This document shows, piece after piece, positions 11,855 through 42,286 of a stretch of DNA of 42,488 nucleotides; position 1 is the first letter of the stretch, and every line of letters starts with the position of its first letter. Source of the stretch: Candidatus Eiseniibacteriota bacterium (GTDB taxonomy: Bacteria; Eisenbacteria; RBG-16-71-46). The notes below the pieces were generated by a model. That model searched no databases, had not been told where the DNA came from, and saw only the letters and a list, made by a program, of their open reading frames with translations. The stretch is from positions 1-42,488 of the forward strand of contig JACRPT010000057.1 of assembly GCA_016223045.1 (NCBI GenBank). Direction: 5' to 3'. A program made the translations under genes and the position numbers.

Positions 11855-13216
11855 CTACCTGAGGCCGGACATCGGCACTCCGGACGTCGGCCGCAGCGCC
11901 GCCGGCGGCAGGTCGGGCAGCAGGGCGGCCCCCGCGTCCAGGGCGCCCTCGCCGAAGTTGCTCTCGGCGTCCGACTGGGACACGCCCGCCAGCGGCGCGG
12001 CCGTGGCGCCCAGGCGCGACATCACCTGGTCCTCGGTCCAGTCCGGGTGGAGGGAGAGCAGCAGGGCCGCGCTGCCGGTCACGAACGGAGTGGACATCGA
12101 GGTGCCGCTCCACAGCCGGTAGCCGCCGCCCGGGTAGGCGCTGCGCACGCCGGCGCCGGGAGCGCAGAGGGCGACGAAGCTGCCGTAGGAGGTGAAGGTG
12201 GCCGGGCGGGCCTGGGCGTCCACCGCGGCGACCGCCGCGGTGTGGCTGCTGCGCGCCGGGAACTCCTGGGGGCTGGAGGCGCCCCAGTTCCCGGCCGAAG
12301 CGAAGCACAGGACGCCGCGCGCCTCCGCGAGTTCGAGTGCGCCCTGGATGGCGTCGCTGCTCTGGAGCATGCCGAGGCTCATGTTGATGGCGCGCGCGCC
12401 GTGCGCGATGGCCCAGCGGATGCCCGCGGCCACGTTGAGCATGTCGCCGCGGCCGTCGGAATCGAGCACCCGTACGATGAGCAGGCGCGCCTTCGGGGCG
12501 GTGAGCGCCACGATGCCCGCGACGTGCGTGCCGTGGCCCCAGGCCCCGTCCACGACGCCGTCGCCGTTGCTGTCGCGGCCGGTCCTGACGTCGGTCGGAT
12601 CGGCGGTGTTGCCCACGAAGTCCCAGCCACCGGCGATGCGCCCGGCCAGCGCGGGGTGGGTGAGGTCGGCGCCGGTGTCGAGGATGGCGACCAGCACGCC
12701 CTCACCCTCGCTCACGGCATGCGCGGCGGCGAGGTGGACGGCCTCGGCGGCGGGCTGCTCGAGGTAGGTCTGCGGGGCGCCTTGCCCGTCGTCGAAGGCG
12801 AAGCTCTGCTGGCGGGCCTCGGGCGCGTCCATCCAGGCGTCGCGCTCCGAAGTGACGACGCGCGGATCGCGCGCGAGCTGCGCGCTCAGCGAGTCGGGCA
12901 GCTCTCCGGCCGCGGGCCGCAGCAGCGCGCCCTCCTCGTCGGAATCCACCAGCGTGGCGTGATAGTCGCCGGCCAGCACGGCCGGGTCGGTGCCCGCGGT
13001 CAGGGTGACGACCACGCCGTTCGCGACGTCGTCGTTCGACGGGTTCCCGGGGAGCGGGTTGCCCGGGCGGTCGGCGGCGGGCGCGCCGGTCCGCGGGGCG
13101 ACCGGGAGCCCGCGCGAGCAGGAGGCGGCCAGCAGCGCGGCAGCCGCGAGCGTCACCCCGGCGACGAGGCGGAGAATCCTGGGACGAATGGTCCGGGCAA
13201 GACGGACTTGAGCCAT
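11855..13216 (-). CDS. Subtilisin-like (S8) lipoprotein protease, cassette copy A
   Basis: A 453-residue protein. A lipoprotein signal ends at lipobox LLAASC (Cys33), after a basic start. Residues 60-130 are a short prodomain of inhibitor type. The catalytic domain is complete: Asp180 in AILDTGAD, His228 in GHGTHVAG, oxyanion Asn310 in ASAGNWGA, and Ser373 in SGTSMSTPF. An acidic loop DSNGDGVVDG just before the His motif looks like a calcium site. The ATG at 13216 has an ideal GGAGG 6 nt upstream. It is the last gene of the cassette, 24 nt after the CHAT gene, and ends before a strong hairpin. It would act on the periplasmic side of the envelope. Its paralogue is at 17512-18864. Confidence 0.94.
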   Translation of the reverse strand: MAQVRLARTIRPRILRLVAGVTLAAAALLAASCSRGLPVAPRTGAPAADRPGNPLPGNPSNDDVANGVVVTLTAGTDPAVLAGDYHATLVDSDEEGALLRPAAGELPDSLSAQLARDPRVVTSERDAWMDAPEARQQSFAFDDGQGAPQTYLEQPAAEAVHLAAAHAVSEGEGVLVAILDTGADLTHPALAGRIAGGWDFVGNTADPTDVRTGRDSNGDGVVDGAWGHGTHVAGIVALTAPKARLLIVRVLDSDGRGDMLNVAAGIRWAIAHGARAINMSLGMLQSSDAIQGALELAEARGVLCFASAGNWGASSPQEFPARSSHTAAVAAVDAQARPATFTSYGSFVALCAPGAGVRSAYPGGGYRLWSGTSMSTPFVTGSAALLLSLHPDWTEDQVMSRLGATAAPLAGVSQSDAESNFGEGALDAGAALLPDLPPAALRPTSGVPMSGLR

Positions 13217-13240: not shown

Positions 13241-16042
13241 TTAGATTCTACCTACCGGGTCCGGGGTTTCGAAGTTCCTGCTTCCTGTCCCCTCCGGGGT
13301 GGCCGGGGGCGCCGGTCCGGGACCGGTGAGCGCCACGAAGCCCGCCCATTCCAGGGGGTGCACCCCGGCCCTCCGCCGGGCGGATTGGGCCCCCGCGAGG
13401 GACGCGCCGAGGGATTCCCCGGCGGCCAGCCGCCGGTAGAGGTCCGCCATCAGGACCGCGGCGGCCGCGTCCTCGAGGTCCCATTGCGGCGCCACGACCG
13501 CGCGGGCGCCCGCCAGCAGGAGCGACCGGGCCAGGCCGAACCACTCTTCGCCCGGGTGCACCAGCGCGCGCGCGGTCTGGCAGGCCGACAGCGTCACCCA
13601 GCGCGCGTTCAACCTGAGATCCGCCAGCTCCCCGGCCAGCAGCCAGCGGTCGGCGAAGCGCAGGCCCGACTCCTGCGGGGCGTCGGGGCGATGGACCCCG
13701 TGTCCGGCGAAGTGGATCCACGGAGCGCCGGGGGCCAGCTCGAGGAACCGGGCCGCCGTGGCCTGGTCGCCGGCCAGCAGCCGCGCCCCGGGGAAAGCCC
13801 CCAGCACGGCGCGGGTCTCGGGCCCGACGTTCTCCAGCTCGCCGGCGTCGGAGGCGATGACGAGCGGGCCGCTCGCGGGCACGCCGACCCGGCTTCGGTG
13901 GGCGCCCGGCCGCGGTCGCGCGAGGCCGAGCCTCAGGCCCGGCACCACGGCCAGCTCCATCGCCTCGCACAGCGCGCGGCCGTCGGGCAGCGGCAGCGCC
14001 GCCCACGGCAGCCGGGTGAGCGGACCGACCGGCGCGACCGCGAGGCTGGCGGGCGTCTCCCTCCCCGCAAGCAGCGGCCAGAGCACGAGCGAGGCCAGCT
14101 CGTGGAGCTGCTCGTCCAGCCGCGGGTCCCCGGGGCGCGCCGCGGGAGGCGCGAACGCCGCGCTGCGCAGCGCGAACAGCAGGGCGTGCGCGAGCTGCCC
14201 GAGCATGCCTTCGGCGGCGAGCCTCGGGTGCCCGGCCAGCCCGCCGCGCCGCACCGCGATGGCCGAGAGCGCGCCCTCGTGCAGCAGGTAGTCCACCAGC
14301 AGCGTGCGCGGCGGGAGCAGGCGCCGCAGCGCGGCGGCGCGGATCGAGCGCGGCGGGCGCGCCTCGAGCACGCGCCGCAGGCCGGGACCCACCTTCGGCG
14401 GGTGCCCCGCCGCGGCCTCCGCGTGCGCCGGTGCGGCCGTCGGCGCCGCCGGGACCGAGCGCGCGTTGTGTTCGCGCTCGCGCGCCAGCCGGCCCACCGC
14501 CCAGGCGCGCACGCCCGGCGGCAGCGGGCCACCGGCCGCGCGCCGCGCGCGCGCCTGGCCGACCAGCGCGCGGCCGCGCCCGGCCTCGAGCGCCTCCAGC
14601 GCCTCGGCCACCCGGCCGTGCTCCAGCTCGAGCGCGGCCAGCTCGCGGTGCGGCCAGCCCCACTCGCCCCAGAACGTGGAGCGCCACTGCTCGTCGAGGA
14701 TGCGCGCGGCGAGGCGCTCGGACTCGCGCGCGGCGCGCCGGAGCCAGGTGCGGGCGCGCGCGAGATCGCCGCGCCCGCGCGCCGCTGCGGCTTCGGCCGC
14801 CAGCGAGAGGTGCCGCAGCCGCGGCGACGCGTGGCGCGTGCCCCCGAGCCGGCGCAGCGCCGCCAGGCTCGCCTCGGCCGCGCGCGGCTGGCCGCAGCGC
14901 AGGCGGGCGCGGGCCCTGAGCGCCAGTGCGCAGCCCTCGCGCTCGCGGTCACGCGCGCGCGCAAAGTGGAAGCGCGCCGCGCCGAGCAGCGCCGCGGCGG
15001 CGCGCGGGTTGCCCTCGCGCTCCCACACCGTGGCCAGGCCCACCAGCGCCTCGCCCATCCACACCGAGTTGCCCTCGGCGTGGAAGATCCCCAGCGTGCG
15101 CTCCAGCCGCTGGCGCGCCGCGGCGCTCTGGCCGAGCCGGAACTCGGCGAGCGCCGCGAAGGTCTCGGCCTTGGCGCGCTCGTAGCGCAGGCCGAGCGCG
15201 CCGGTCGCCTCGACGGCCCGCCCGGCCTCCTCGAGCGCTTCGGGGTGCACCCCCATGCGCAGGAGGATCTCCGCGCGGTCGAGCGTCGCCAGCGCCGCCA
15301 GCGAGGGATAGCCGTGATCGCGCGCCGCGCGGCGCACCGCCGCGAGCGCGTCGAGCGCCGCCTCGTGCCGGTGCTCGAGGAAGTCGAGGTAGGCGAGGTT
15401 GTACTCGGCGTTCAGCGCGTCGAGCTCGAAGCCCGCCGCCGCGCCCGCGCGCCGCGCGCTCAGGTAGTGACGGCGCGCGGGCGCCGGCTGCCCGAGCAGC
15501 GCCAGGCAGTTCGCGACGTTGATCTCGACCAGGGCCGCGCCGCGCGTGTCCCCGGCGCGGCGCAACCCGCGCGTCGCGTCGCGGTAGCAGGCCAGCGCGC
15601 GCCCGGGAAGGTCGAGCCGGTGGAAGAGGTTGCCCTCGTTGTTGAGCAGCCGCGCCAGGCTGACCCGGTCGCCGGCGCGCCGGAGCAGCCGCCGCCCGCG
15701 CCGCGCCGCGCGCTCCGCCTCGCCGTAGCGCGCCAGGTACATGAGCGCGTCCACCAGGCCGATGGCGCAGCGTCCCTGCTCGCGCCGGTCGCCGGCCGCC
15801 GCGTACCAGCGCTCGGCCGCGCGGTACGCCGCCGCGGCCGGGCGCGCCCGGCGCAGGCCGCGCAGCACGTGGCCGCGCAGGCGCCACAGCCCGCCGCGCG
15901 TTGCCGGATCGGCGCCGCGGGCCGCCGCCGCGAAGTCGCGCGCGAGCGCCCGCAGCGCACGCTCCGGCCGGGTGCGGCGCAGCGATTCGACGCGCTGGAT
16001 GAGGCGGGACGCGCGCGCGGCGGGCGCGATGGTCGCGGTCAC
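13241..16042 (-). CDS. TPR-CHAT caspase-like protease, cassette copy A
   Basis: A 933-residue protein without signal peptide or membrane segment. Residues 45-490 are an array of tetratricopeptide-like helical hairpins (for example LLNNEGNLFHRLDLPGRALA and NAEYNLAYLDFLEHRHEAAL). A Pro/Ala-rich linker follows at about 525-550. Residues 560-910 are a CHAT (caspase HetF associated with TPRs) domain, with the catalytic dyad visible as His781 in IHFAGHG and Cys821 in TLSACQTA, followed by GARAVVAPQWDLED and EWAGFVALTG. Family members are cysteine peptidases; separase and the TPR-CHAT protease of type III-E CRISPR are relatives. The GTG at 16042 is 7 nt after the anti-sigma stop. The target is unknown; the flanking sigma/anti-sigma pair and subtilase are candidates. 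Confidence 0.93.
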   Translation of the reverse strand: MTATIAPAARASRLIQRVESLRRTRPERALRALARDFAAAARGADPATRGGLWRLRGHVLRGLRRARPAAAAYRAAERWYAAAGDRREQGRCAIGLVDALMYLARYGEAERAARRGRRLLRRAGDRVSLARLLNNEGNLFHRLDLPGRALACYRDATRGLRRAGDTRGAALVEINVANCLALLGQPAPARRHYLSARRAGAAAGFELDALNAEYNLAYLDFLEHRHEAALDALAAVRRAARDHGYPSLAALATLDRAEILLRMGVHPEALEEAGRAVEATGALGLRYERAKAETFAALAEFRLGQSAAARQRLERTLGIFHAEGNSVWMGEALVGLATVWEREGNPRAAAALLGAARFHFARARDREREGCALALRARARLRCGQPRAAEASLAALRRLGGTRHASPRLRHLSLAAEAAAARGRGDLARARTWLRRAARESERLAARILDEQWRSTFWGEWGWPHRELAALELEHGRVAEALEALEAGRGRALVGQARARRAAGGPLPPGVRAWAVGRLAREREHNARSVPAAPTAAPAHAEAAAGHPPKVGPGLRRVLEARPPRSIRAAALRRLLPPRTLLVDYLLHEGALSAIAVRRGGLAGHPRLAAEGMLGQLAHALLFALRSAAFAPPAARPGDPRLDEQLHELASLVLWPLLAGRETPASLAVAPVGPLTRLPWAALPLPDGRALCEAMELAVVPGLRLGLARPRPGAHRSRVGVPASGPLVIASDAGELENVGPETRAVLGAFPGARLLAGDQATAARFLELAPGAPWIHFAGHGVHRPDAPQESGLRFADRWLLAGELADLRLNARWVTLSACQTARALVHPGEEWFGLARSLLLAGARAVVAPQWDLEDAAAAVLMADLYRRLAAGESLGASLAGAQSARRRAGVHPLEWAGFVALTGPGPAPPATPEGTGSRNFETPDPVGRI

Positions 16043-16049
16043 GGGCCGG

Positions 16050-16661
16050 TCACAGGGTGAGGGCGCCGAGCTGGTAGCGCACGCCCGGGCCGGTCACGGT
16101 GAGCCGCACGCGCCCGGCGGGCACGCGGTCGAGGGCGAACGCGCCGTGTGCGTCCGGGAGCGCGGTGCGCCGCTCGGCGCGGGCCGCCAGCTCCACGCGC
16201 CACAGCGCCGGGTCGGCGCTGCGCAGCCAGCCGCGGACCGACACCGTGCCGCGGCCCTCGGGCTCGCACTCCAGCTCGAGCGCGTCCTCACCGAGCGCGA
16301 AGCGCAGGCGGCGCACCTCGCCCACGGCGCGGCGCGCCGCCGCCGGCAGCGGCGCCGTCCACGAATCGAACAGCAGGCGGGCCGCCGCCTCGACGCGCCG
16401 GCGCAGCGGCACCCGCGCCCCGATCGGCTGGAACACGGCGAGCGCGCGCTCGCGCAGCGTGGCCGGCACCTCGGGCGTGAGGTCGCCGCGCATGGTCTCG
16501 ATCAGGCCGCCGAAGACGCGCACGCGCTCGTGGCAGTCCGGGCACGGGCTGCCCAGGTGTTCCTCGACCGCCCGGCGCCTTTGCGCCGGGAGCATGTCCT
16601 CGAGGTAGTCCAGGGCCGTGCGGGTGTCGAGGTGCCGGCCCGTGGCGCGCGGTTCCGTCAT
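16050..16661 (-). CDS. Zinc-finger (HC2-type) anti-sigma factor, cassette copy A
   Basis: A 203-residue protein whose start overlaps the sigma gene by four bases (ATGA). The N-terminal 50 residues form the anti-sigma zinc helix pair: RTALDYLEDMLP, then EEHLGSPCPDCHERV with His35, Cys40 and Cys43 (His-x4-Cys-x2-Cys, one residue longer than the usual His-x3-Cys-x2-Cys). Unlike most such proteins it has no membrane helix. The C-terminal 80 residues read as a beta-sandwich resembling a carboxypeptidase-regulatory fold (LPDAHGAFALDRVPAGRVRL). It is expected to bind and silence its sigma factor in the cytoplasm. Its neighbour downstream is a protease, so cleavage rather than membrane signalling may release the sigma factor. 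Confidence 0.85.
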   Translation of the reverse strand: MTEPRATGRHLDTRTALDYLEDMLPAQRRRAVEEHLGSPCPDCHERVRVFGGLIETMRGDLTPEVPATLRERALAVFQPIGARVPLRRRVEAAARLLFDSWTAPLPAAARRAVGEVRRLRFALGEDALELECEPEGRGTVSVRGWLRSADPALWRVELAARAERRTALPDAHGAFALDRVPAGRVRLTVTGPGVRYQLGALTL

Positions 16662-17383
16662 CGTCTGCCCTCCGATCGTGCCGTCGCGGCCGCCCGGCCC
16701 GGCACCCGCCCGGAGCGCCGGCCGCGGTCCGGCCCGCGGAGCTTCGGACGCTCGGGGGCAGAGGTGGCGGCCCGGCGGGTTTTCGTACGGGATTCCTTCG
16801 CCATGCGGGCGAAGATGTCACGCAGTCGCTCCAGGCAGCGCGCGCGGTTCGGGCCCAGCGAGTTCATGGGCATGCCGAGCCGGCGCGCCAGCTCGGCGTA
16901 GGAGGCGGGCTCCTCCTCATAATAGAGGGCGCCGAGCAGGCGCCGGCAGCGCTCGCCGAGCGCGGAGAACGCCAGCCGGACCATGGCCTGCCGCTCGAAC
17001 GATTCCAGCTCGGCGCCGACCGGCGGGCCGCCGGCCGCGAGGCGCTCGAGGGTCACAGGGTCGCCGGTGTGGAGTGCCTGCTCGCGCCGCCGCCTCAGCG
17101 CGGTGGCGCGAGCGATGCGGTCGGTGGTGCTCGACAGCCACCGCACCAGGCTGCGCGGGTCGCGCAGCGACGGCAGCCCCTTCACCAGCGCGGCGAAGAC
17201 CTCCTGGAACACGTCGCCCAGGTCGGGATCGGACAGCCGGTAGGAGCGCGCCACCGCGTAGACCAGGCGCTCGTGGCGGCGGACCATCGCCTCCCAGGCG
17301 CGCGCATCGCCGGACAGACAGCGTGCGACCAGGCGCGCGTCCTCATCGGGGTCGAGCATCCCCGGCAGCGGCGGCAATCTCAT
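16658..17383 (-). CDS. ECF-type sigma factor, cassette copy A
   Basis: A 241-residue sigma-70-family factor with ECF architecture. Region 2 (about residues 18-100) contains LVARCLSGDARAWEAMVRRH, the core-binding YAVARSYRLSDPDLGDVFQEVF and the -10 contact helix RWLSSTTDRIARATALRRRR. Region 4 (about 133-195) is a helix-turn-helix: ALYYEEEPASYAELARRLG, then MPMNSLGPNRARCLERLRDI. A basic 45-residue tail follows. The ATG at 17383 is preferred; longer versions start in sequence that is not conserved in copy B. An element TAGAGT lies 7 nt before the ATG. The anti-sigma gene overlaps its stop. The factor probably controls the cassette itself and other genes, by family precedent. Confidence 0.9.
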   Translation of the reverse strand: MRLPPLPGMLDPDEDARLVARCLSGDARAWEAMVRRHERLVYAVARSYRLSDPDLGDVFQEVFAALVKGLPSLRDPRSLVRWLSSTTDRIARATALRRRREQALHTGDPVTLERLAAGGPPVGAELESFERQAMVRLAFSALGERCRRLLGALYYEEEPASYAELARRLGMPMNSLGPNRARCLERLRDIFARMAKESRTKTRRAATSAPERPKLRGPDRGRRSGRVPGRAAATARSEGRR

Positions 17384-17511: not shown

Positions 17512-18864
17512 CTACCTCCGCACCGGGCTGCTCGCGGGGGTGCGGTCCGCGTCGCCGGCCGGCAGGTCGGGTCCGAGCGCCGCACCCGCGTCGAGCGCGC
17601 CCGAGCCGAGCTTCGAGGACAGCGTGGCGCTGGCGTTCACCAGCGCGTGCGACCAGGCGCCGATGCGGGCCCGCACCGCCGCGGGCTGCCACGACGGGTG
17701 GTTGGCGAGCAGCAGCGCCGCGGTACCCGACACGAACGCGGTGGACATCGAGGTGCCGCTCCACAGCCGGTAGAGCCCGCCCGGATAGGCGCTCCGCACC
17801 GCGATGCCCGGAGCACACAGGTCCACGAAGCTGCCGTACGAGGTGAAGCTGGCCGGCTGGTTCTCCGCGTCCACCGCGGCCACCGCGACCACGTCGCTGC
17901 TGCGGGCCGGGAACTCCTGCGGCGTCTCGGCGCCCCAGTTGCCGGCGGAGGCCACGAGCAGCACGCCCTCGCCCGCGGCCTGGACGATCGCCGAGTTGAT
18001 GGCGGGGCTGCTCTGCAGCATGCCGAGGCTCATGTTGATGACCCGGGCGCCGTGCTGCGTGGCCCAGCGGATCCCCGCCGCCACCGAGCGCACGTCGCCG
18101 CGGCCGTCCGAGTCGAGCACGCGCACGATCAGGAGCCTCGCCTGCGGGGCGACCAGCGAGACGATGCCGGCGATGTGGGTGCCGTGCCCGTACGCCCCGT
18201 CCACCACGCCGTCGGCGTTGCTGTCCACGCCGTCGTGGGTGTCGCCGAAGTCGGCGTCATTGCCGATGAAGTCCCAGCCGCCGGCGATGTGGCCGGCGAG
18301 CGCCGGGTGGGTGGGGTCGGCGCCGGTGTCCAGGATCGCGACCGGCACGTCGCTGCCCCGGCTCGCATAGTGCGCCGCGTAGAGGTTGATCGCCTCGGCC
18401 GCGGGCTGCTGCTGGTAGGCGTCCGCCGTGCCGTAGCCGTCGTCGAACGCGAAGCTGCGCTGGCGCGCCTCGGCCGGCACCAGCACCGCGTTCTGCTCGA
18501 CCGTCGCCACGCGCGCATCGCCCGAGATGCGCCGGCACAGCACGTCCGCCGCCTCGCCCCCGGTCGGGCGCAGCACCGACACCCCGTTGGTGACGTCCAC
18601 CACCAGCGCGCCGTAGTCGCTGGCGATCAGGTAGGGGTCGGCGCCCGGCGCTACGGTGATGACGACCTCGTCGGTCTCGGTGGTCGAGCCGGTCGCGGAA
18701 CCGACGGGTCCGCGCGCCTCCTGCACGCTCGGCGCGGTGAGCGGTGCTCGCGAACACGACGCGGCGCCCAGCGCGAGCGCGAGGATCGCCGCCAGGAGTT
18801 GCGCGCTCACGGGGGGGCGTTGCCGCGCGCGGACGGAGTGTGGAGCAGGGCTGATGGCTGACAT
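17512..18864 (-). CDS. Subtilisin-like (S8) lipoprotein protease, cassette copy B
   Basis: A 450-residue paralogue of the copy-A protease. The ATG at 18864 has GGGAGG upstream and starts a lipoprotein signal ending at GAASC (Cys37). The prodomain occupies about 60-140. Catalytic residues are all present: Asp179 (AILDTGAD), His227 (GHGTHIAG), Asn309 (ASAGNWGA) and Ser372 (SGTSMSTAF). The Pro that normally follows the Ser motif is Ala here. Another shared stretch is FAFDDGYGTADAYQQQPAAE, the linker to the catalytic domain, and both copies end in GALDAGAAL-x-PDLP. Its start lies 68 nt after the last CHAT codons. The enzyme looks functional even though its CHAT partner gene is broken, so the two can apparently be uncoupled. 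Confidence 0.93.
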   Translation of the reverse strand: MSAISPAPHSVRARQRPPVSAQLLAAILALALGAASCSRAPLTAPSVQEARGPVGSATGSTTETDEVVITVAPGADPYLIASDYGALVVDVTNGVSVLRPTGGEAADVLCRRISGDARVATVEQNAVLVPAEARQRSFAFDDGYGTADAYQQQPAAEAINLYAAHYASRGSDVPVAILDTGADPTHPALAGHIAGGWDFIGNDADFGDTHDGVDSNADGVVDGAYGHGTHIAGIVSLVAPQARLLIVRVLDSDGRGDVRSVAAGIRWATQHGARVINMSLGMLQSSPAINSAIVQAAGEGVLLVASAGNWGAETPQEFPARSSDVVAVAAVDAENQPASFTSYGSFVDLCAPGIAVRSAYPGGLYRLWSGTSMSTAFVSGTAALLLANHPSWQPAAVRARIGAWSHALVNASATLSSKLGSGALDAGAALGPDLPAGDADRTPASSPVRR

Positions 18865-18932
18865 GACGACCTCCCGTTCGGGCTTCGATAGTAGATCAAG
18901 CGCCTCAGCTACGGGGGGGAATTCCTCGGGTC

Positions 18933-21603
18933 TCATCTCTGGATCCTTCCGTCTTCCACCGGGCGGGGGCTCCGCGCCCGGGACGGCTCAGGCCGCGGGG
19001 CGCCCCGCCGCCCGATCCCGGCCCGGCCGGCCTCCGGCCCGGCCAGCACCACGAATCCGGCCCACTCGACCGGATGGACCCCGGCATGCCGTCGCGCGGC
19101 CTGTGCCCCGGCGAGAGCCCGGCCCAGCCCCTCGCCGAGCGACAGCCGGCCGTAGAGGTCCTCCATCAGCGCCGCGGCCGCGGCGTCCTCGATGTCCCAC
19201 TGCGCGGCCACCACCGCCCGCGCCCCCGACAGGAGCAGCGCGCGGGCCAGTCCGAACCACTCCTCGCCCGGGCGCACCAGCGCGCGCGCGCTCTGGCAGG
19301 CCGAGAGCGTGACCCAGCGGGCGGCGAGCCCCACGTCGGCCAGCTCGCCCGCCAGCAGCCAGCGATCGGCGAACCTCAGGCCCGACTCGTGCGGGGCCTC
19401 GGCCCGGTAGTGCCCGTGCCCGGCGAAGTGGATCCAGTCCGCCGCGGGCGCCAGCTCGAGGACGCGCGCGGCGGTCGCCCCGCCGCCCGCCAGCTCCCGG
19501 CACCACGGTCAGCTCGAGCGATTCGCACAGCGCGCGCCCGTCCGCCAGCGGCAGCGCCGCCCACGGCAGCCGCGCCAGGGGCGCCACCGGCACCACGGCC
19601 AGCGCGCGCAGGCGGTCCAGCGCCGCGCCGCGCGGCAGCGCCGGCCACAGCGCGGCCGCCGCCAGCAGCGTCAGCTCCTCGTCGAGCGCCCCGTCCGCCG
19701 CTCGCGCGTCCCGCGAGGTCCAGGCCGCGCCGCGCAGGCTGAAGAGCAGGGAGTGGACGAGCCGCGCGAGCCTGGCCTCGGGCACCAGCTGCGTGGCCGC
19801 CGCGAGCCGCGCGCGCGAGACCGCGATGGCATGGAGCGCGCGGTCGTGGATCAGGTAGTCGAGCAGCAGTGCGTCGTCCGCCAGCGAGCGCTGCAGCGCC
19901 GCGGCGCGGACGGCGCGCGGTGCCAGCGCCGCGAGCGCGCGCCTGAGCCCGGCGCTATCGATCTCGACCGCCGGCGGCGCCACCACCGCCTCGGCCGCGC
20001 GCGCGGTGCGCTCGCGGTCGCGCGCGAAGCGCCCGGCCGCCCACTCGCGCACCCGCTTCGGCAGCGCCCCGCCGCGCGCGCGCCGCGGATGCGCCGGGCC
20101 CATCAGCGCCCGCCCGCGCCCACCCTCCAGCGCCTCGAGCGCCTCGGCCAGCCGCCCGCCCGACAGCTCGAGCGCCGCCAGCTCGCGGTGCGGCCAGCCC
20201 CACTCGCCCCAGAAGGTGGCGCGCCAGTGCTCGTCGAGGATGCGCGCGGCGAGGCGCTCGGACTCGCGCGCCGCGCGCCGCAGCCAGGTGCGGGCGCCCG
20301 CGAGGTCGCCGCGCGCCCGGCTGAACGCGGCCTCGGCCGCCAGCACCAGGTGCCCGAGGCGCGGCGAGACGCGCCGCCCGGCGCGCGCGCGCAGGCGCGT
20401 CAGACAGGCGTGCGCTGCGCTGCGCGTGGCGCCGCCCGCGGGTCCGCCGCACTCGAGGTGCGCGCGCGCCAGCAGCGCCAGGGCGCAACCTCCGCGCTCG
20501 CGGTCGCCGGCGCGCGCGAACCGCCGGCGCGCCGCCGCCAGCAGCCCCGCCGCGGCGCGCGGGTTGCCCTCGCGCCACGCCAGCGTCGCCAACCCCACCA
20601 GCGTCTCTCCGGTCCACACCGCGTTGCCCTCGCGGTGGAAGGCGGCGAGCGTCCGCTCGAGCCGCGCGCGCGCGGCGGATGCCCGGCCCAGCCGGTACTC
20701 GGCCAGCGCGGCGAAGGTCTCGGCCTTGGCGCGCTCGTAGCCGAGATCCACCGCGGCGCAGGCCTCCATCGCCCGGCGCGCCTCCGCGAGCGCTTCGTCG
20801 TGCGCGCCCATGCGCAGGAAGATCTCGCTGCGGTCGAGCGCCGCGAGCGCGGCGAGCCACGGGTAGCCCCGCGGGCCGGCCCCGGCCGCGACGCGCGCCA
20901 GCGCCTCGAGCGCCGACTCGTAGCGGTGCTCGAGGAAGTCCAGGTAGGCGAGGTTGTACTCGGCGTTCAGGGTCTCGAATGCCGCGCCGGCGGCCTCGTT
21001 CACGCGCCGCGCCTCCTCGTAGAGCCGGCGCGCCCCGGCGAGCCGGCCGAGGAGCGAGAGGCAGTTCGCGACGTTGCCGCCGATCACCGCCGCGCCGCGC
21101 GCATCGCCGGCGCGCGCCAGCGTGCGGCGGGCCTCGCGGTAGCGGGCCAGCGCGCGCCCGGGGAGGTCCAGCCGGTGGAAGAGGTTGCCCTCGTTGTTGA
21201 GCAGCCGTGCCAGGCTGACGCGGTCGCCCGCGCGCTCGAGCAGCCGCCGCCCGCGCCGCGCCGCGCGCTCCGCCTCGGCGTAGCGTGACAGGTACATCAG
21301 GGAATCCACCAGCCCGATCGCGCAGCGTCCCTGTTCGCGCGGGTCGCCGGCGGCGGCGTACCAGTGGCCGGCGCGCCGGTAGGCCTCGGCCGCCGGCCGC
21401 ATCCGCTGGAGCGCGCGCAGCACGTGGCCGCGCAGGCGCCACAGCGCGCCGCGCTGCGCCGGCGCCGCGCCCCGCGCCGTGGCCGCGAAGCCGCGCGCCA
21501 GCTCGCGCCACGCCTCCTCCGGCCGTTCGCGGCGCAGCGACTCGACGCGCGCGATGAGCGCGTCGGCCCGAGCGGCTCCGTCTTCCGTGGAGGTCTCGCT
21601 CAT
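18933..21603 (-). pseudogene. TPR-CHAT protease, cassette copy B, frameshifted by an internal deletion
   Basis: A paralogue of the copy-A TPR-CHAT gene. Translation from 21603 (CGGGAG before the ATG) matches copy A through the TPR array and half of the CHAT domain to the residues LELTVVPG. At about 19495-19503 roughly 52 codons present in copy A are missing and the frame changes. From there the correct frame runs to a stop at 18933 and still encodes IHFAGHG (catalytic His) and TLSACQSA (catalytic Cys), then AVVAAQWDIED and EWAGFVVLAG. The unshifted frame stays open by chance to 18988 because of the high GC, giving an 871-residue protein with a nonsense tail and no catalytic dyad. The missing segment also rules out simple ribosomal frameshifting. 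An assembly or sequencing error across a repeated stretch is possible. Confidence 0.85.
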
Positions 21604-21619
21604 GGCGTCGCTCCCGGGA

Positions 21620-22231
21620 TCACATCGTCAGGGGGGGAAGTCGGAATCGGCCGGTCGGGCCGGTGACGGTCAGGTGCGCCTCGCCCGCGGGCACGCGCTC
21701 GAGCGCGAAGCGTCCGGACGAATCGGGGAGCGCGGTGAAGCGCTCCCCGCTCGTTTCGACCTCGAGCCGGAACAGTGCGGAGTCGGACGCCCGCAACCGT
21801 CCACGCAGGCTGACCAGGCCTGCGGCCTCGGTCTCGCACTCAAGTTCGAGCACATCGTCCATGAGTGCGAAATGGAGCCGGCGTGCCTCGCCGACCGCGC
21901 GGCGCGTGGCCGCGGGCAGGGGTGAGGCCCACGAGTCGAAGACCAGGCGCGCCACCGCCTCGAGCATGCCGCCCGCGGGTTCGGGCCGCGTGGCCGGCGC
22001 GAACGCCGCGAGCGCGAGCGCGCGCAGCGACTCCGGCACTACGGGCGTGCGGTCGCGGCGCATGCGCTCGATCAGGCGGCCGAGCGCGCGCACCCGCTCG
22101 TGGCACTCCGGGCAGGGACCGGCCAGGTGCTCCTCCACCTCGGTCCGGCCGGCGTGGGGCAGCAGGCCTTCGAGGTAGTCGAGCGCGGTGCGCGCGTCGA
22201 GATGGCGACCGGGGGACCGCCGGGGGGTCAT
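21620..22231 (-). CDS. Zinc-finger (HC2-type) anti-sigma factor, cassette copy B
   Basis: A 203-residue paralogue, the same length as copy A, with the same arrangement: RTALDYLEGLLP, then EEHLAGPCPECHERV (His35, Cys40, Cys43). There is again no membrane helix, and the C-terminal half is beta-rich (LPDSSGRFALERVPAGEAHL). The start overlaps the sigma stop by four bases. The conserved spacing of the zinc ligands in both copies suggests the His-x4-Cys form is real. The central portion (residues 50-110) differs more between copies, which may give each anti-sigma its own partner. It ends 16 nt before the CHAT-B start. Confidence 0.85.
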   Translation of the reverse strand: MTPRRSPGRHLDARTALDYLEGLLPHAGRTEVEEHLAGPCPECHERVRALGRLIERMRRDRTPVVPESLRALALAAFAPATRPEPAGGMLEAVARLVFDSWASPLPAATRRAVGEARRLHFALMDDVLELECETEAAGLVSLRGRLRASDSALFRLEVETSGERFTALPDSSGRFALERVPAGEAHLTVTGPTGRFRLPPLTM

Positions 22232-22932
22232 CGGTTCTCCTCCGTCCGTTCTGTCGGTGACGCGTCGTCGTCCTCGGGGGCGCGGCGGCGCTGCGCGTCT
22301 TCAGTTCCAGAGGTGGGCGGCGTGCCCGGGCTGATACCACCGCCGGCGGCCGCGAGGGCGGCCAGCCCCCGGCGGAGGCGCTCCATGCACCTTGCACGGG
22401 TCGGCCCCAGCGAGCCGATCGGCACGCCCAGCCGCCGGGCGAGGTCGGCATAGGAGGGGGGCGGATCCTCGTAGTAGAGCGCGGCCAGCAGCCGGCGGCA
22501 GCGCTCGTGGAGCCCGGCGAGCGCCAGCCGCACCAGCGCCTGCTCCTCCTGCTCCTCGAGGTCGGCGCCCACCCACGGGTCGGCGCCCGGCAGCCGCTCC
22601 AGGTCCTCGGGGTCCGCCGTCATCGCCCGCTCGCGGCGCCGCCTGAGCGCGGTGGCGAGCGCGATGCGGTCGGTGGTGCTCGAGAGCCAGCGCACCAGCG
22701 CCCGCGCGTCGCGCAGGCGGGGAAGACCCCGCACCAGCGCCGTGAAGACGTCCTGGAAGACGTCGGCGAGGTCGGCTTCGTCCAGGCTGTAGGAGCGGGC
22801 GACCGCGTAGACCAGGCGCTCGTGCCGGCGGACCAGCGCCTCCCAGGCGCGCGCATCGCCGGCCAGACAACGCTCGACCAGCCGCGCGTCTTCGGCGGGG
22901 TCGAGCGAGGTCGCGCGCTCCGGGCCGGTCAT
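22228..22932 (-). CDS. ECF-type sigma factor, cassette copy B
   Basis: A 234-residue paralogue of the copy-A sigma factor. Over the 41 residues starting at LDP, 36 are identical by eye. Region 2 runs about 18-100 (YAVARSYSLDEADLADVFQD; RWLSSTTDRIALATALRRRR) and region 4 about 130-190 (YADLARRLGVPIGSLGPTRA). The tail after 200 is acidic and Pro-rich, unlike the basic tail of copy A. The ATG at 22932 is supported by conservation and by the TAGAGT element 7 nt upstream. An open frame continues far upstream but has no conserved protein in it. It is the first gene of cassette B. Confidence 0.9.
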   Translation of the reverse strand: MTGPERATSLDPAEDARLVERCLAGDARAWEALVRRHERLVYAVARSYSLDEADLADVFQDVFTALVRGLPRLRDARALVRWLSSTTDRIALATALRRRRERAMTADPEDLERLPGADPWVGADLEEQEEQALVRLALAGLHERCRRLLAALYYEDPPPSYADLARRLGVPIGSLGPTRARCMERLRRGLAALAAAGGGISPGTPPTSGTEDAQRRRAPEDDDASPTERTEENR

Positions 22933-22945: not shown

Positions 22946-23558
22946 GCATGGGGGCGCGAGCCCGGCCGGGCGGCGGCGGCTGCCTGCCGGGAGCCGGCGG
23001 TCGCGAGCCCGGCCGCGGCACGGGCCGGGCACGCGGCCACCGCATCTACCCGCGGGGCGCGGCCGGTCGCGACCTCTCGCACCGATGTATCAGACCGCCG
23101 CACCCCCGCACCTGTGTGGGTGCATGGAGTCGGAGAGGTAGCCCCCCTTCCTCGAAAGCTCCCTGCCAAACGGCCGTCCGTCGCGGGGCCTCGGTCCAAA
23201 ACGCAACTCGGGCTGATGGCTTCGAGGACTCGAGGCGCCCGCGGACGGCCGATGCGTCCATCGGACCACCGGCGCTCATGACCGGCGATCCCCCCGCCCC
23301 TGCGCAAGCCGGGCGGTGCCGCGAGCGCCGGTGGCCGATCGCTGCCCGGGGCGCGCTCCGGTCCCCCGGCGCTCCCCCGGGCCCTCTGCCGGCCGCCCGG
23401 ACGCACCCGCGCCGTCCGCCCGCCCGAGCGGGAGGAAGTGGCGCCAGAAGCTCGAGCAGGCGTTGCCAGGAGTCGCTGGGGCCCGCGATCGACATCTGCT
23501 CCGGGTTCGGTGCCTGCGCGTCCTCGGGTCCTCGCCACGGAGACACGCGAGGGGGCCC
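22946..23558. other. Spacer upstream of cassette B, no gene supported
   Basis: About 610 nt between the sigma-B start and the K+ channel stop. Frames here are open only because of the GC content. On the minus strand an ATG at 23495 opens SIAGPSDSWQRLLELLAPL, which looks like the beginning of a real protein, perhaps a relict, but the rest is Arg/Gly/Pro noise. No hairpin, repeat or RNA gene is convincing. Confidence 0.4.
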
Positions 23559-39253: not shown

Positions 39254-42200
39254 TCATCTCACGACCGAGATCTTCCTGCTCTGCTGGACCTCGCCGGCTC
39301 GGAAGCGCATGTAGTAGACGCCTGCCCCGACCGGCCGGCCACCCTCGTCCGTGGTGTTCCACTCCACCCGGTACTGACCCACGCCTTCGTTCCCCTCACG
39401 GAGCGTGCGCACCAGGCGGCCCTGTAGGTCGTGGAGCGTGAGCGACACCGCGACCGGGCCGCGCGCTGCGACATCCGAGCCGATCGCGTACTCGAACAGC
39501 GCCCGGCTCGACACCGGGTTCGGACCGGCGGTCAACGCGAACGTCAGAGTCGGCTTGCCCGTGAGCGAGGCCGCGACCGGGCCGCTCCAGACCGAGCTGC
39601 CGTCGGGCTCGTGCAGCTGGATCCAGTAGTAGTAAGTGCGCCCCGGCTCGACCGCCGCGTCGAGGTACTCGAAGCGCGGGCCGGCGAAGGCGAGGGGCTC
39701 CGGCGTGAGGTCCTCCCGGGTCTCGAAGTCATCCGAGACCGAACGGAAGACCGACGCGCTGAGCCCGCCCTCATCGCGGAGCAGGAGCAGCGTGAGCCGA
39801 CAGCCGGCGGGATCCGGGTCCGCCCGGAGAGACGCCACCACCGTCGCGGTCGCGCCCGCCTCGGGAATCCACAGGGTCACCGGCACTACACCACCTTCCA
39901 CCGTGGGCTGCGGCATCGGCTGGTGGTCGGTGACGTACGTCACCCCGGAGGGGCTGCCCGGCGAGTCGTTCACGAACAGCGAGAAGGACGAGACGCGCCC
40001 GGTGCGGTTCACGTAGCCTCCGTCCAGCACGTACAGGAACCACGGGTTCGACATGCTGGGCGGCAGGTACGGCTCGGCCCCATCTCCGGCATTGAAGCCG
40101 ACCGACCAGAAGTGCTCGATCGTGCCGGTCGTCGACGTCCCGGTGTTGGGCGGGGTCGGCAGCAGGACCCGGGAGCTATCCTGCTTGCTCTCGCCCGGGC
40201 CCAGAACTTCGAAGTCCGCGCCCCCGAGGTTGCCCGGCGTGTAGCCCCGATCAGCGCCCACGCGCACCATCAAGTCGTTGTCCACCGCGTTGTGGACGAT
40301 GCTGTAGAAGGCGGTCGCGATGCGCGCCAGTTGTCCGTAATCCGCCGGCACGGGAGGCTCGAGGTGCGAACCTCCCAGCAGGTCCAGCCACTCGACCTGG
40401 TACCAGTACGTCCGGCCCAACTGAAGCGCCGGGTCGCTGTCCGCATACAGGTAGGGCGTGCGGTTGTCGTCGCCCTGGATGTTGGGATCACCGGCAGGGC
40501 TGGGGGCGATGAGGAGCGTGTTGAGCTGGGCGAACGTGCCGGGGGCGCCGCCCGCGTCGGGCGCCCGGTACAGATTGAAGCCCAGGAACGGGTACTCGCG
40601 CTGAGTGATCCACTTCACGTCAATGCGGCCGTCCTGGGGGCGAGCGACGGCGCGAATCTGCACCACCTGCACGCCGCTGGTGCTGTTCAAGGCCTCCTTC
40701 ACCGCGGCGTAGACATCCACGAGGCCCCAGCCGCAGCTCGGGTCGTAGTTCGCATCGAGCCCGTACGGGTCCTGTCCGCGGTCGCCGGTGGCCTTGACCG
40801 TGGGCACGTTGTGCTCCGCGGTGTTCTGAAGAATCGTGCGGACCTGGAGCGGCGTCAGGCTCGGGTTCGCCTGCAACACGAGGGCGGCGCAGCCCGAGAC
40901 GTGCGGAGTCGCCATGCTGGTTCCGGAGAGCTGCTGGTAGGCGGTGCCGTCCGTCGTGGGATCTCCGAATGCGGAGATGATGCCGGCACCCGGGGCCACC
41001 ACGCTGGGCTTCATCTCGTCCCAGTGATCGGCGTCGCCGTCGTCGTCGCGCGGTCCTTCGTTGGAAAAGCTCGTCACCTTGTCGTCGGAGCGGTCCAGAG
41101 TTCTTGCATGCTCGCTCGCCCCGACGGCGATGGACTTGTCCGCCGCGGCCGGCGAGGAGATGCACTCCGTCGCCGCGTCGTTGCCTGTGGCGATGCAGAG
41201 CACCATGCCGGCGTCAACGGCCGTGTTGATCAGCGTGGAGCCGGCTCCGGTGCTGGTGCCGCTGCCAGTCTTGCACTCGGTCGAGCCGAGAGACATGCTC
41301 ACCACGTCGATGCCCTGCCAGATGCTTCCCGGCTCAAGGCCCGCCCAGAGGCGATTCCGGTTGCCGATGCACCAGTCGAGCCCGCGGTTGGCGCCGCCCA
41401 CGCTCACCCCCGCGTCCGAGAGCACCTTGCAGTCCACTAGGCGTGCGCCGGGAGCGACGCCGGCGAAGAAGCCGCCGGGACCGCCCGTTCCCATGGCCGT
41501 GCCGGCCACGTGGGTCGCGTGATAGCTGGACGCTTCGCCGCCGTGATCCTGCGGGTTCGAGCTGCCGTCCACCGGGGTCGAGCAGGCGGCTTGCCCGCAC
41601 CAGAACTCGCCACCGCCCAGGAACTTGCCCTTCAGGCTCTCGTGCCCCGGGTAGCCCGGGTTGACGGCATCCACGTCGTCATTCACGCCGGTGTCGAGGA
41701 TGCCGATCACGATCCCGGTGCCGTCGATGCCGACCTCCTGGCGCACGCTGGGGAACAGCACGTAGTTCTCTGCCTTTGCGAGCCCGCGCGAGTCGCGCGC
41801 ACGCACGACCCGTGATCCGTAGTGGTTCGTCGCGTACTCGACCGGGATCGCTTCCACCTGCGTCACGCCGGGGAGCGTGACGATCTGCTGGATCCGGGCG
41901 TAGGTGGCGTGGGACTCGATGTAGTCGATGTTCATGAAAGGCCACGCCATCGTGACCCCGGTGCCGAGCAGGGTCGTCTGGTCCGCGGCCGTGGGATGAT
42001 GGTCGTAGCCCACGTAGATCGCGAACAGGATGTCGAGCGGGTTCTCGACACCGATGATCATCCGCTTCGACGGATCCTGGTTCACGAACGCGGCGTTCCA
42101 GCCCTGCGTGTGCACCCGGTCAATCATGTCGTCGATCTTGTTCTGGTCCAGATCCGCCCAGGCGAACGCGCTCGAAGGGAGCGAGACAACTCCGGCGAGC

Positions 42201-42271
42201 GCGAGGACCAGGGCGAGCGCGGGAGCGCACCACGCTCCGGCTCGTCGGGTTGAAGCGGTAGCAAGAAACAC
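39254..42271 (-). CDS. Large secreted S8 protease with fibronectin-like and sorting-type C-terminal domains
   Basis: A 1005-residue protein. The GTG at 42271 has GGAGG 7 nt upstream. A signal peptide spans residues 1-37 (SSAFA). A prodomain (about 38-155) begins with WADLDQNKIDDMID, a calcium-binding D-x-D-x-N-x3-D loop. The catalytic domain has Asp193 (GILDTGVND), His251 (HATHVAGT), Asn364 (IATGNDAA) and Ser452 (SGTSMATPH), all present. It is followed by fibronectin-like beta domains (VKWITQREYPFLGFNLYRA) and a FlgD/sorting end (TAGPNPVSSRALFEYAIG, GVYYMRFRAGEVQQSRKISV). It differs from the two cassette proteases, which are lipoproteins without these domains. It is probably an extracellular nutrient-type protease. 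Confidence 0.94.
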   Translation of the reverse strand: MFLATASTRRAGAWCAPALALVLALAGVVSLPSSAFAWADLDQNKIDDMIDRVHTQGWNAAFVNQDPSKRMIIGVENPLDILFAIYVGYDHHPTAADQTTLLGTGVTMAWPFMNIDYIESHATYARIQQIVTLPGVTQVEAIPVEYATNHYGSRVVRARDSRGLAKAENYVLFPSVRQEVGIDGTGIVIGILDTGVNDDVDAVNPGYPGHESLKGKFLGGGEFWCGQAACSTPVDGSSNPQDHGGEASSYHATHVAGTAMGTGGPGGFFAGVAPGARLVDCKVLSDAGVSVGGANRGLDWCIGNRNRLWAGLEPGSIWQGIDVVSMSLGSTECKTGSGTSTGAGSTLINTAVDAGMVLCIATGNDAATECISSPAAADKSIAVGASEHARTLDRSDDKVTSFSNEGPRDDDGDADHWDEMKPSVVAPGAGIISAFGDPTTDGTAYQQLSGTSMATPHVSGCAALVLQANPSLTPLQVRTILQNTAEHNVPTVKATGDRGQDPYGLDANYDPSCGWGLVDVYAAVKEALNSTSGVQVVQIRAVARPQDGRIDVKWITQREYPFLGFNLYRAPDAGGAPGTFAQLNTLLIAPSPAGDPNIQGDDNRTPYLYADSDPALQLGRTYWYQVEWLDLLGGSHLEPPVPADYGQLARIATAFYSIVHNAVDNDLMVRVGADRGYTPGNLGGADFEVLGPGESKQDSSRVLLPTPPNTGTSTTGTIEHFWSVGFNAGDGAEPYLPPSMSNPWFLYVLDGGYVNRTGRVSSFSLFVNDSPGSPSGVTYVTDHQPMPQPTVEGGVVPVTLWIPEAGATATVVASLRADPDPAGCRLTLLLLRDEGGLSASVFRSVSDDFETREDLTPEPLAFAGPRFEYLDAAVEPGRTYYYWIQLHEPDGSSVWSGPVAASLTGKPTLTFALTAGPNPVSSRALFEYAIGSDVAARGPVAVSLTLHDLQGRLVRTLREGNEGVGQYRVEWNTTDEGGRPVGAGVYYMRFRAGEVQQSRKISVVR

Positions 42272-42286
42272 GGTACGGCCTCCTTC

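Follow-up and report, generated by a model that had tools for sequence, protein, structure and literature searches.

The DNA considered here, hereafter the window, is a stretch of 42,488 nucleotides (positions 1 to 42,488 of contig JACRPT010000057.1, assembly GCA_016223045.1) from a Candidatus Eiseniibacteriota bacterium, and its subject is a module in which a caspase-like protease of the CHAT family lies next to a sigma factor and a soluble inhibitor of that factor. On the minus strand, a gene for a sigma factor of the extracytoplasmic function (ECF) type (16658..17383) is followed by one for a soluble anti-sigma factor (16050..16661) and by one for a protease that combines tetratricopeptide repeats (TPR) with a CHAT domain (13241..16042). 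The start of the anti-sigma gene overlaps the stop of the sigma gene by 4 bases, the CHAT gene starts a few bases past the anti-sigma gene, and the three form one tight operon; right after the CHAT gene comes a gene for an exported, subtilisin-like S8 protease (11855..13216, minus strand). We refer to these four genes as cassette 1. A preliminary description of positions 13241-17383 had placed a CHAT protease next to a sigma/anti-sigma pair, and its three genes and their coordinates on one minus-strand operon stand, but it overlooked the exported S8 protease, a second copy of the cassette and a third CHAT gene elsewhere in the genome.

Each of these genes could be assigned to a family by profile search. 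The sigma factor reached 37.6 bits against Pfam Sigma70_r2 (cut-off 24) and 67.9 bits against the NCBIfam model TIGR02937 for sigma70-ECF (cut-off 42.9), and its profile matched the structures of SigH, SigW and RpoE; as an ECF-type factor it has regions 2 and 4 only, and its tail reads GPNRARC and onwards. The S8 protease matched Pfam PF00082 with an E-value of 6e-45 and bears a lipoprotein-type signal (LAASC). Across its family we found the Asp/His/Ser catalytic motifs and a lipobox, with an export signal in the complete members inspected. No export signal was noticed on the CHAT protein and, to judge from these signals, the two proteases should therefore sit in different compartments, so that no encounter between S8 and CHAT is expected in the cytoplasm. 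The window contains another large S8 protease gene at 39257-42286 (minus strand), outside both cassettes.

The CHAT protein matched Pfam PF12770 at 146.6 bits (cut-off 24), which places it in the CHAT family with its catalytic histidine and cysteine. These are His781 and Cys821, as the preliminary description had numbered them, and both are invariant in an alignment with 16 relatives. A structure model gave a long, confident arch of TPR-type helix pairs and a CHAT part of low confidence, while Pfam detected CHAT and TPR alone and no SAVED domain. PADLOC matched the CHAT protein, the sigma factor and the anti-sigma factor to no defence system model; it returned generic subtilase and IetS matches to the S8 protease and a weak BovA match to CHAT, and nothing else.

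The anti-sigma factor has 203 residues, in which Pfam recognised CarboxypepD_reg and, weakly and below the cut-off, zf-HC2 (E 0.021). The N-terminal half of the family profile matched the solved anti-sigma factors 3hug_B (E 1.4e-4) and RsiW (E 4.4e-4), and the zinc ligands H10, H35, C40 and C43 are shared by at least 90% of 20 relatives, although the protein studied here has one extra residue in the motif (H-x4-C) relative to the H...HxxxCxxC pattern. By these ligands in its N-terminal helical domain and by its RsiW and 3hug_B matches it is, on sequence grounds, a zinc-type anti-sigma (ZAS). The zinc-domain part was unrecognised in four relatives (L057, L068, L081 and L082). The preliminary description had noted that the protein lacks a membrane helix, and this proved to be a trait of the whole family: the best 19-residue hydropathy is 0.64 in this protein and does not exceed 1.71 in any of 20 relatives, whereas 9 of 10 ordinary zinc anti-sigma factors taken as controls reached a maximum of 1.9-2.7, that is, a membrane helix. 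Regulated intramembrane proteolysis is thus not expected. The best conserved stretch lies outside the zinc domain, at residues 94-120, where the mean top-residue fraction is 0.56; residues 10-78 reach 0.45 and the beta domain about 0.40. Within it D99, R110 and R117 are nearly invariant. The segment lies between the zinc and beta domains, is partly disordered in the structure model and may be a cleavage or docking site. A fold search with residues 115-203 returned common immunoglobulin (Ig)-like beta folds only (Z about 8), so that the beta domain appears as an Ig-like sandwich to which this search gave no specific relative.

An important question is how faithfully these genes travel together. 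We read the neighbourhoods in 99 genomes from a CHAT protein search and ran a reciprocal search with the anti-sigma profile, which covered 47 genomes from the phylum together with 385 relatives. In the family, order and class of Candidatus Eisenbacteria the genes stand in the order sigma, anti-sigma, CHAT and S8, and the named relatives found with a 7-row CHAT alignment were metagenome-assembled genomes of the same group. Among 37 full-length members of the anti-sigma family, which include loci first picked via CHAT, a CHAT gene lies at most 400 bp downstream in 33 and a sigma gene just upstream in 34. For the loci found by the anti-sigma search alone, CHAT lies at most 400 bp away in 12 of 15 (L080-L085 and L100-L105, not L106, L107 or L108). 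On the other hand, anti-sigma factors that matched the zinc half alone had a sigma gene in 10/10 cases and a CHAT gene in 0/10. The co-occurrence analysis proposed in the preliminary description, which looked for a CHAT gene unlinked to the sigma/anti-sigma pair, has thereby been run, and it found linkage. The same division holds within the same genomes: the CHAT-linked anti-sigma factors are those without a helix and with a beta domain, while nearly all of the ordinary ones have a helix and no CHAT.

The S8 gene follows less strictly. It lies within 5 kb in 19 of 25 places with enough sequence and was not found downstream in the other 6, most of which keep CHAT; it is a regular part of the operon and its likely output. 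In one relative two consecutive S8 genes follow CHAT (L044:1767-4536). Outside the phylum, sigma, anti-sigma and CHAT occur together at seven loci in six families (L100-L105 and L107), with CHAT inverted and separate from the pair in L107 and S8 directly next in three of the seven (L100-L102). At one locus, L053, a second sigma/anti-sigma pair and the CHAT gene meet tail to tail on opposite strands, and the association with CHAT therefore holds without co-transcription. In the whole locus (L053:335-7547), one CHAT gene is flanked by two such pairs, arranged tail to tail, and the S8 gene diverges from the second sigma gene. Other arrangements exist as well. The third TPR-CHAT gene of the genome, on contig C108 (L001 / L055), is a different one and is convergent with a sigma gene and a membrane-type zinc anti-sigma gene. 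At L064, L066, L072 and L074 a CHAT gene is directly followed by a sigma gene, with L064 and L072 adding a zinc anti-sigma with a likely membrane helix, so the linkage of CHAT to sigma factors extends beyond the four-gene module.

Upstream of cassette 1, all four genes are repeated as a tandem duplicate, cassette 2 (17512-22932), which is 60-67% identical to it. It comprises, again on the minus strand, the sigma factor (22228..22932, 61% identical to copy 1), the soluble anti-sigma (21620..22231, 61%), the TPR-CHAT gene (18984..21603) and the exported S8 protease (17512..18936, 60%). Its CHAT gene is broken: near 19480-19495, between the VVPG and ATAAR motifs, it is 158 nt shorter than its counterpart (16 nt here, 174 nt in copy 1), and the resulting frame shift precedes the part with the catalytic His and Cys. 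This lesion is either a real deletion and pseudogene or an assembly error.

The second cassette also carries two DNA elements of the form AGGTG-N16-TGATAC, for which 0.15 matches with up to one mismatch are expected in the window. The first (23087..23113, minus strand) is promoter-like and points into the operon, and AGGTG, exactly 16 bases and TGATAC recur at the same place upstream of the sigma gene in six further aligned operons of the family. The second (22311..22337, plus strand) sits inside the 3' end of the sigma gene, faces backward through it and is present in 8/8 family operons, so that the two face each other across the sigma gene, about 650-800 bp apart. Cassette 1 has no exact copy and keeps a degenerate trace of the backward element alone (16762..16788, plus strand, two mismatches). 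On the coding side of the backward element a T is kept at the wobble position of Gly, Ser and Arg codons (GGT, AGT and CGT, usage 7%, 2% and 7%), and ACC is followed by TCT or TTT (usage 3% and 6%), with differing encoded amino acids. Since wobble bases are kept while amino acids change, selection acts on the DNA here, and we rejected a conserved peptide as the explanation. DNA inversion between the facing elements was rejected too, their 16-base spacers being different.

The elements follow the module closely. An exact match was present in 9/9 family genomes with the module and in 1/11 without it; a reversed control pattern gave 6 matches in 20 family genomes. Of the three matches in the genome studied here, two are at the operon. 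Across the wider class, TGATAC lies ahead of the sigma gene at 6/19 loci and backwards at its 3' end at 8/19, and it was found in 0/13 ordinary ECF operons. No rearrangement of its six letters equals it, except for one that ties in the backward test and is probably the overlapping CTGATA, top of the hexamer list there. Additional matches in the genomes did not add up to a convincing regulon; the one exception is a uridine kinase-like gene shared by two members of a single genus (L129 and L136), where the element lies 140-190 bases ahead of the gene and may mark a further target. The S8 gene has no TGATAC element of its own ahead of it. From their sequence and placement, we suspect that the facing elements are convergent autoregulatory promoters. 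Between cassettes 2 and 1 we found no sigma-70 promoter or terminator beyond chance. Given that no such terminator precedes cassette 1, that cassette 1 has no exact element and that the CHAT gene of cassette 2 is broken, the two cassettes are probably one transcript, with the promoter provided by cassette 2 and the protease by cassette 1.

Taken together, these observations lead us to a reading to which we attach about even confidence, namely a CRISPR-free (clustered regularly interspaced short palindromic repeats), protease-gated and autoregulated sigma switch that has an exported protease among its outputs and is possibly limited by antisense transcription. In a resting cell, the soluble anti-sigma would hold the ECF sigma factor through its zinc-type N-terminal domain. 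The TPR arch of the CHAT protein would sense a cytoplasmic signal, be it a protein or a ligand, and so switch on the His781/Cys821 protease, which would cut the anti-sigma, most likely at residues 94-120 between the zinc and beta domains. The freed sigma factor would then transcribe its own operon from AGGTG-N16-TGATAC, yielding more sigma factor, anti-sigma, CHAT and exported subtilisin, the last acting as output in the envelope or outside the cell. From the backward element at the 3' end of its gene, the same sigma factor could drive antisense transcription over that gene and so limit the response to a pulse. The reading draws on the fixed order sigma, anti-sigma, CHAT and often S8 in the phylum and in families outside it: that CHAT, a sigma factor, a soluble inhibitor and a second protease form a fixed unit suggests that CHAT cuts the inhibitor, with no CRISPR involved.

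Several points weigh against this interpretation. A CHAT gene and an S8 gene downstream of a sigma gene also fit a plain sigma regulon operon; the TGATAC element was found in 0/7 loci outside the phylum; the backward element may serve to bind a regulator instead of acting as a promoter; and sigma binding may depart from the usual mode in the four relatives whose zinc part is unrecognised. The first of these leads to the strongest rival, in which CHAT and S8 would be outputs only, with other proteins as their targets, for instance in cell death or a response to stress, while the zinc anti-sigma would itself read a cytoplasmic redox or ligand signal and be left alone by CHAT. Soluble zinc anti-sigma factors of the RsrA type can work as redox switches, the zinc ligands are nearly invariant here, and sigma and anti-sigma come first, with CHAT and S8 following in what appears to be the same transcription unit and no TGATAC before S8. 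We nevertheless consider this rival possible but doubtful. The second pair at L053 lies beside a CHAT gene that it does not transcribe, CHAT is linked to the anti-sigma more faithfully than S8 (33/37 against 19/25), and redox sensing needs neither the conserved 94-120 segment nor the beta domain; furthermore, L057 and L068, for all that their zinc part is unrecognised, still have CHAT adjoining.

Another explanation bears on the DNA elements only and is compatible with protease gating: both could be bound by a different regulator, which would loop the sigma gene or block it. Two facing sites that flank the sigma gene at such a distance would suit it, and we know of no standard ECF -10 element that resembles the TGATAC half. 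Yet an autoregulated ECF promoter would agree with the strict 16-base spacing, the place just before the sigma start and the near absence from genomes that lack the module, and no further DNA-binding gene is regularly in the operon, which leaves us thinking it rather unlikely. Least of all do we expect a proteolytic cascade, in which CHAT would act on the exported S8 protease or another partner and the sigma/anti-sigma pair would set the expression level alone: the two proteases do share one operon and CHAT-to-caspase cascades have reportedly been described for SAVED-CHAT type III systems, but the export signal on S8 and none noticed on CHAT point to different compartments, and S8 was not found downstream in places that mostly keep CHAT.

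Returning to the protease-gated switch, its functionally closest counterpart is Csx29/Csx30/CASP-sigma of the type III-E CASP system, where the TPR-CHAT protease Csx29 cuts the sigma inhibitor Csx30 and CASP-sigma binds motifs in its own locus (PMC10028731), a precedent which the preliminary description had given correctly. As there, a TPR-CHAT protease adjoins an ECF sigma factor and its inhibitor, and our CHAT profile matches Csx29 (7y9x_B) with an E-value of 7.1e-12 over the CHAT part. In contrast to type III-E, the inhibitor here belongs to the zinc type of anti-sigma, has 203 residues and carries a beta domain, the operon includes an exported S8 protease and there is a second, backward-facing element. 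The anti-sigma profile matched no Csx30 chain among solved structures, although such a likeness could be missed by a sequence search. The genome, 97.6% complete, gave no match to RAMP (PF03787; Cas7-11 type) or Cas1 (PF01867) while control families were detected, which bears out the earlier remark that the same parts occur here without CRISPR genes; with neither family present, the module is not a member of type III-E.

Next in closeness comes CalpL/CalpT/CalpS of type III CRISPR, in which an ECF sigma factor is held by an anti-sigma that a protease cleaves (PMC11417357). Cleavage of the anti-sigma would be common to both; CalpL, however, is a Lon-SAVED protease driven by cyclic tetra-adenylate (cA4), whereas our protein combines TPR with CHAT and shows no SAVED domain by Pfam. 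RsiW-type systems share the ECF sigma factor and the zinc-type anti-sigma domain, but not the soluble nature of the anti-sigma. For the backward element a partial parallel is AsrC of Salmonella Typhi, an antisense RNA at rpoE-rseABC that lies opposite rseC (PMC4585123). Antisense transcription within a sigma operon would be common to both, proposed here from the element; our case differs in that the sigma gene itself contains a promoter-like element, which matches in kind the one upstream of the operon. Among open-access PubMed Central (PMC) papers, we found none on a CRISPR-free CHAT/sigma module, the most relevant being PMC10028731, and no relevant paper on HetF/PatU3.

To our knowledge, type III-E CRISPR is the only setting in which a CHAT protease is known to release a sigma factor. 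The family described here would offer small substrates for testing CHAT specificity, TPR sensing and sigma release, and the convergent element in the sigma gene offers a directly testable self-limiting circuit. The hosts of the module are Candidatus Eisenbacteria, little-known bacteria of soil and groundwater, together with several distant bacterial families, and the presence of these core parts without CRISPR in such distant bacteria would suggest that the switch existed first and was taken over by CRISPR. Tentatively, we picture a widespread CRISPR-independent module in which a caspase-like protease would free a sigma factor that drives an exported subtilisin and limits itself via a backward promoter within its own gene, and of which type III-E CASP may be the CRISPR-captured version.

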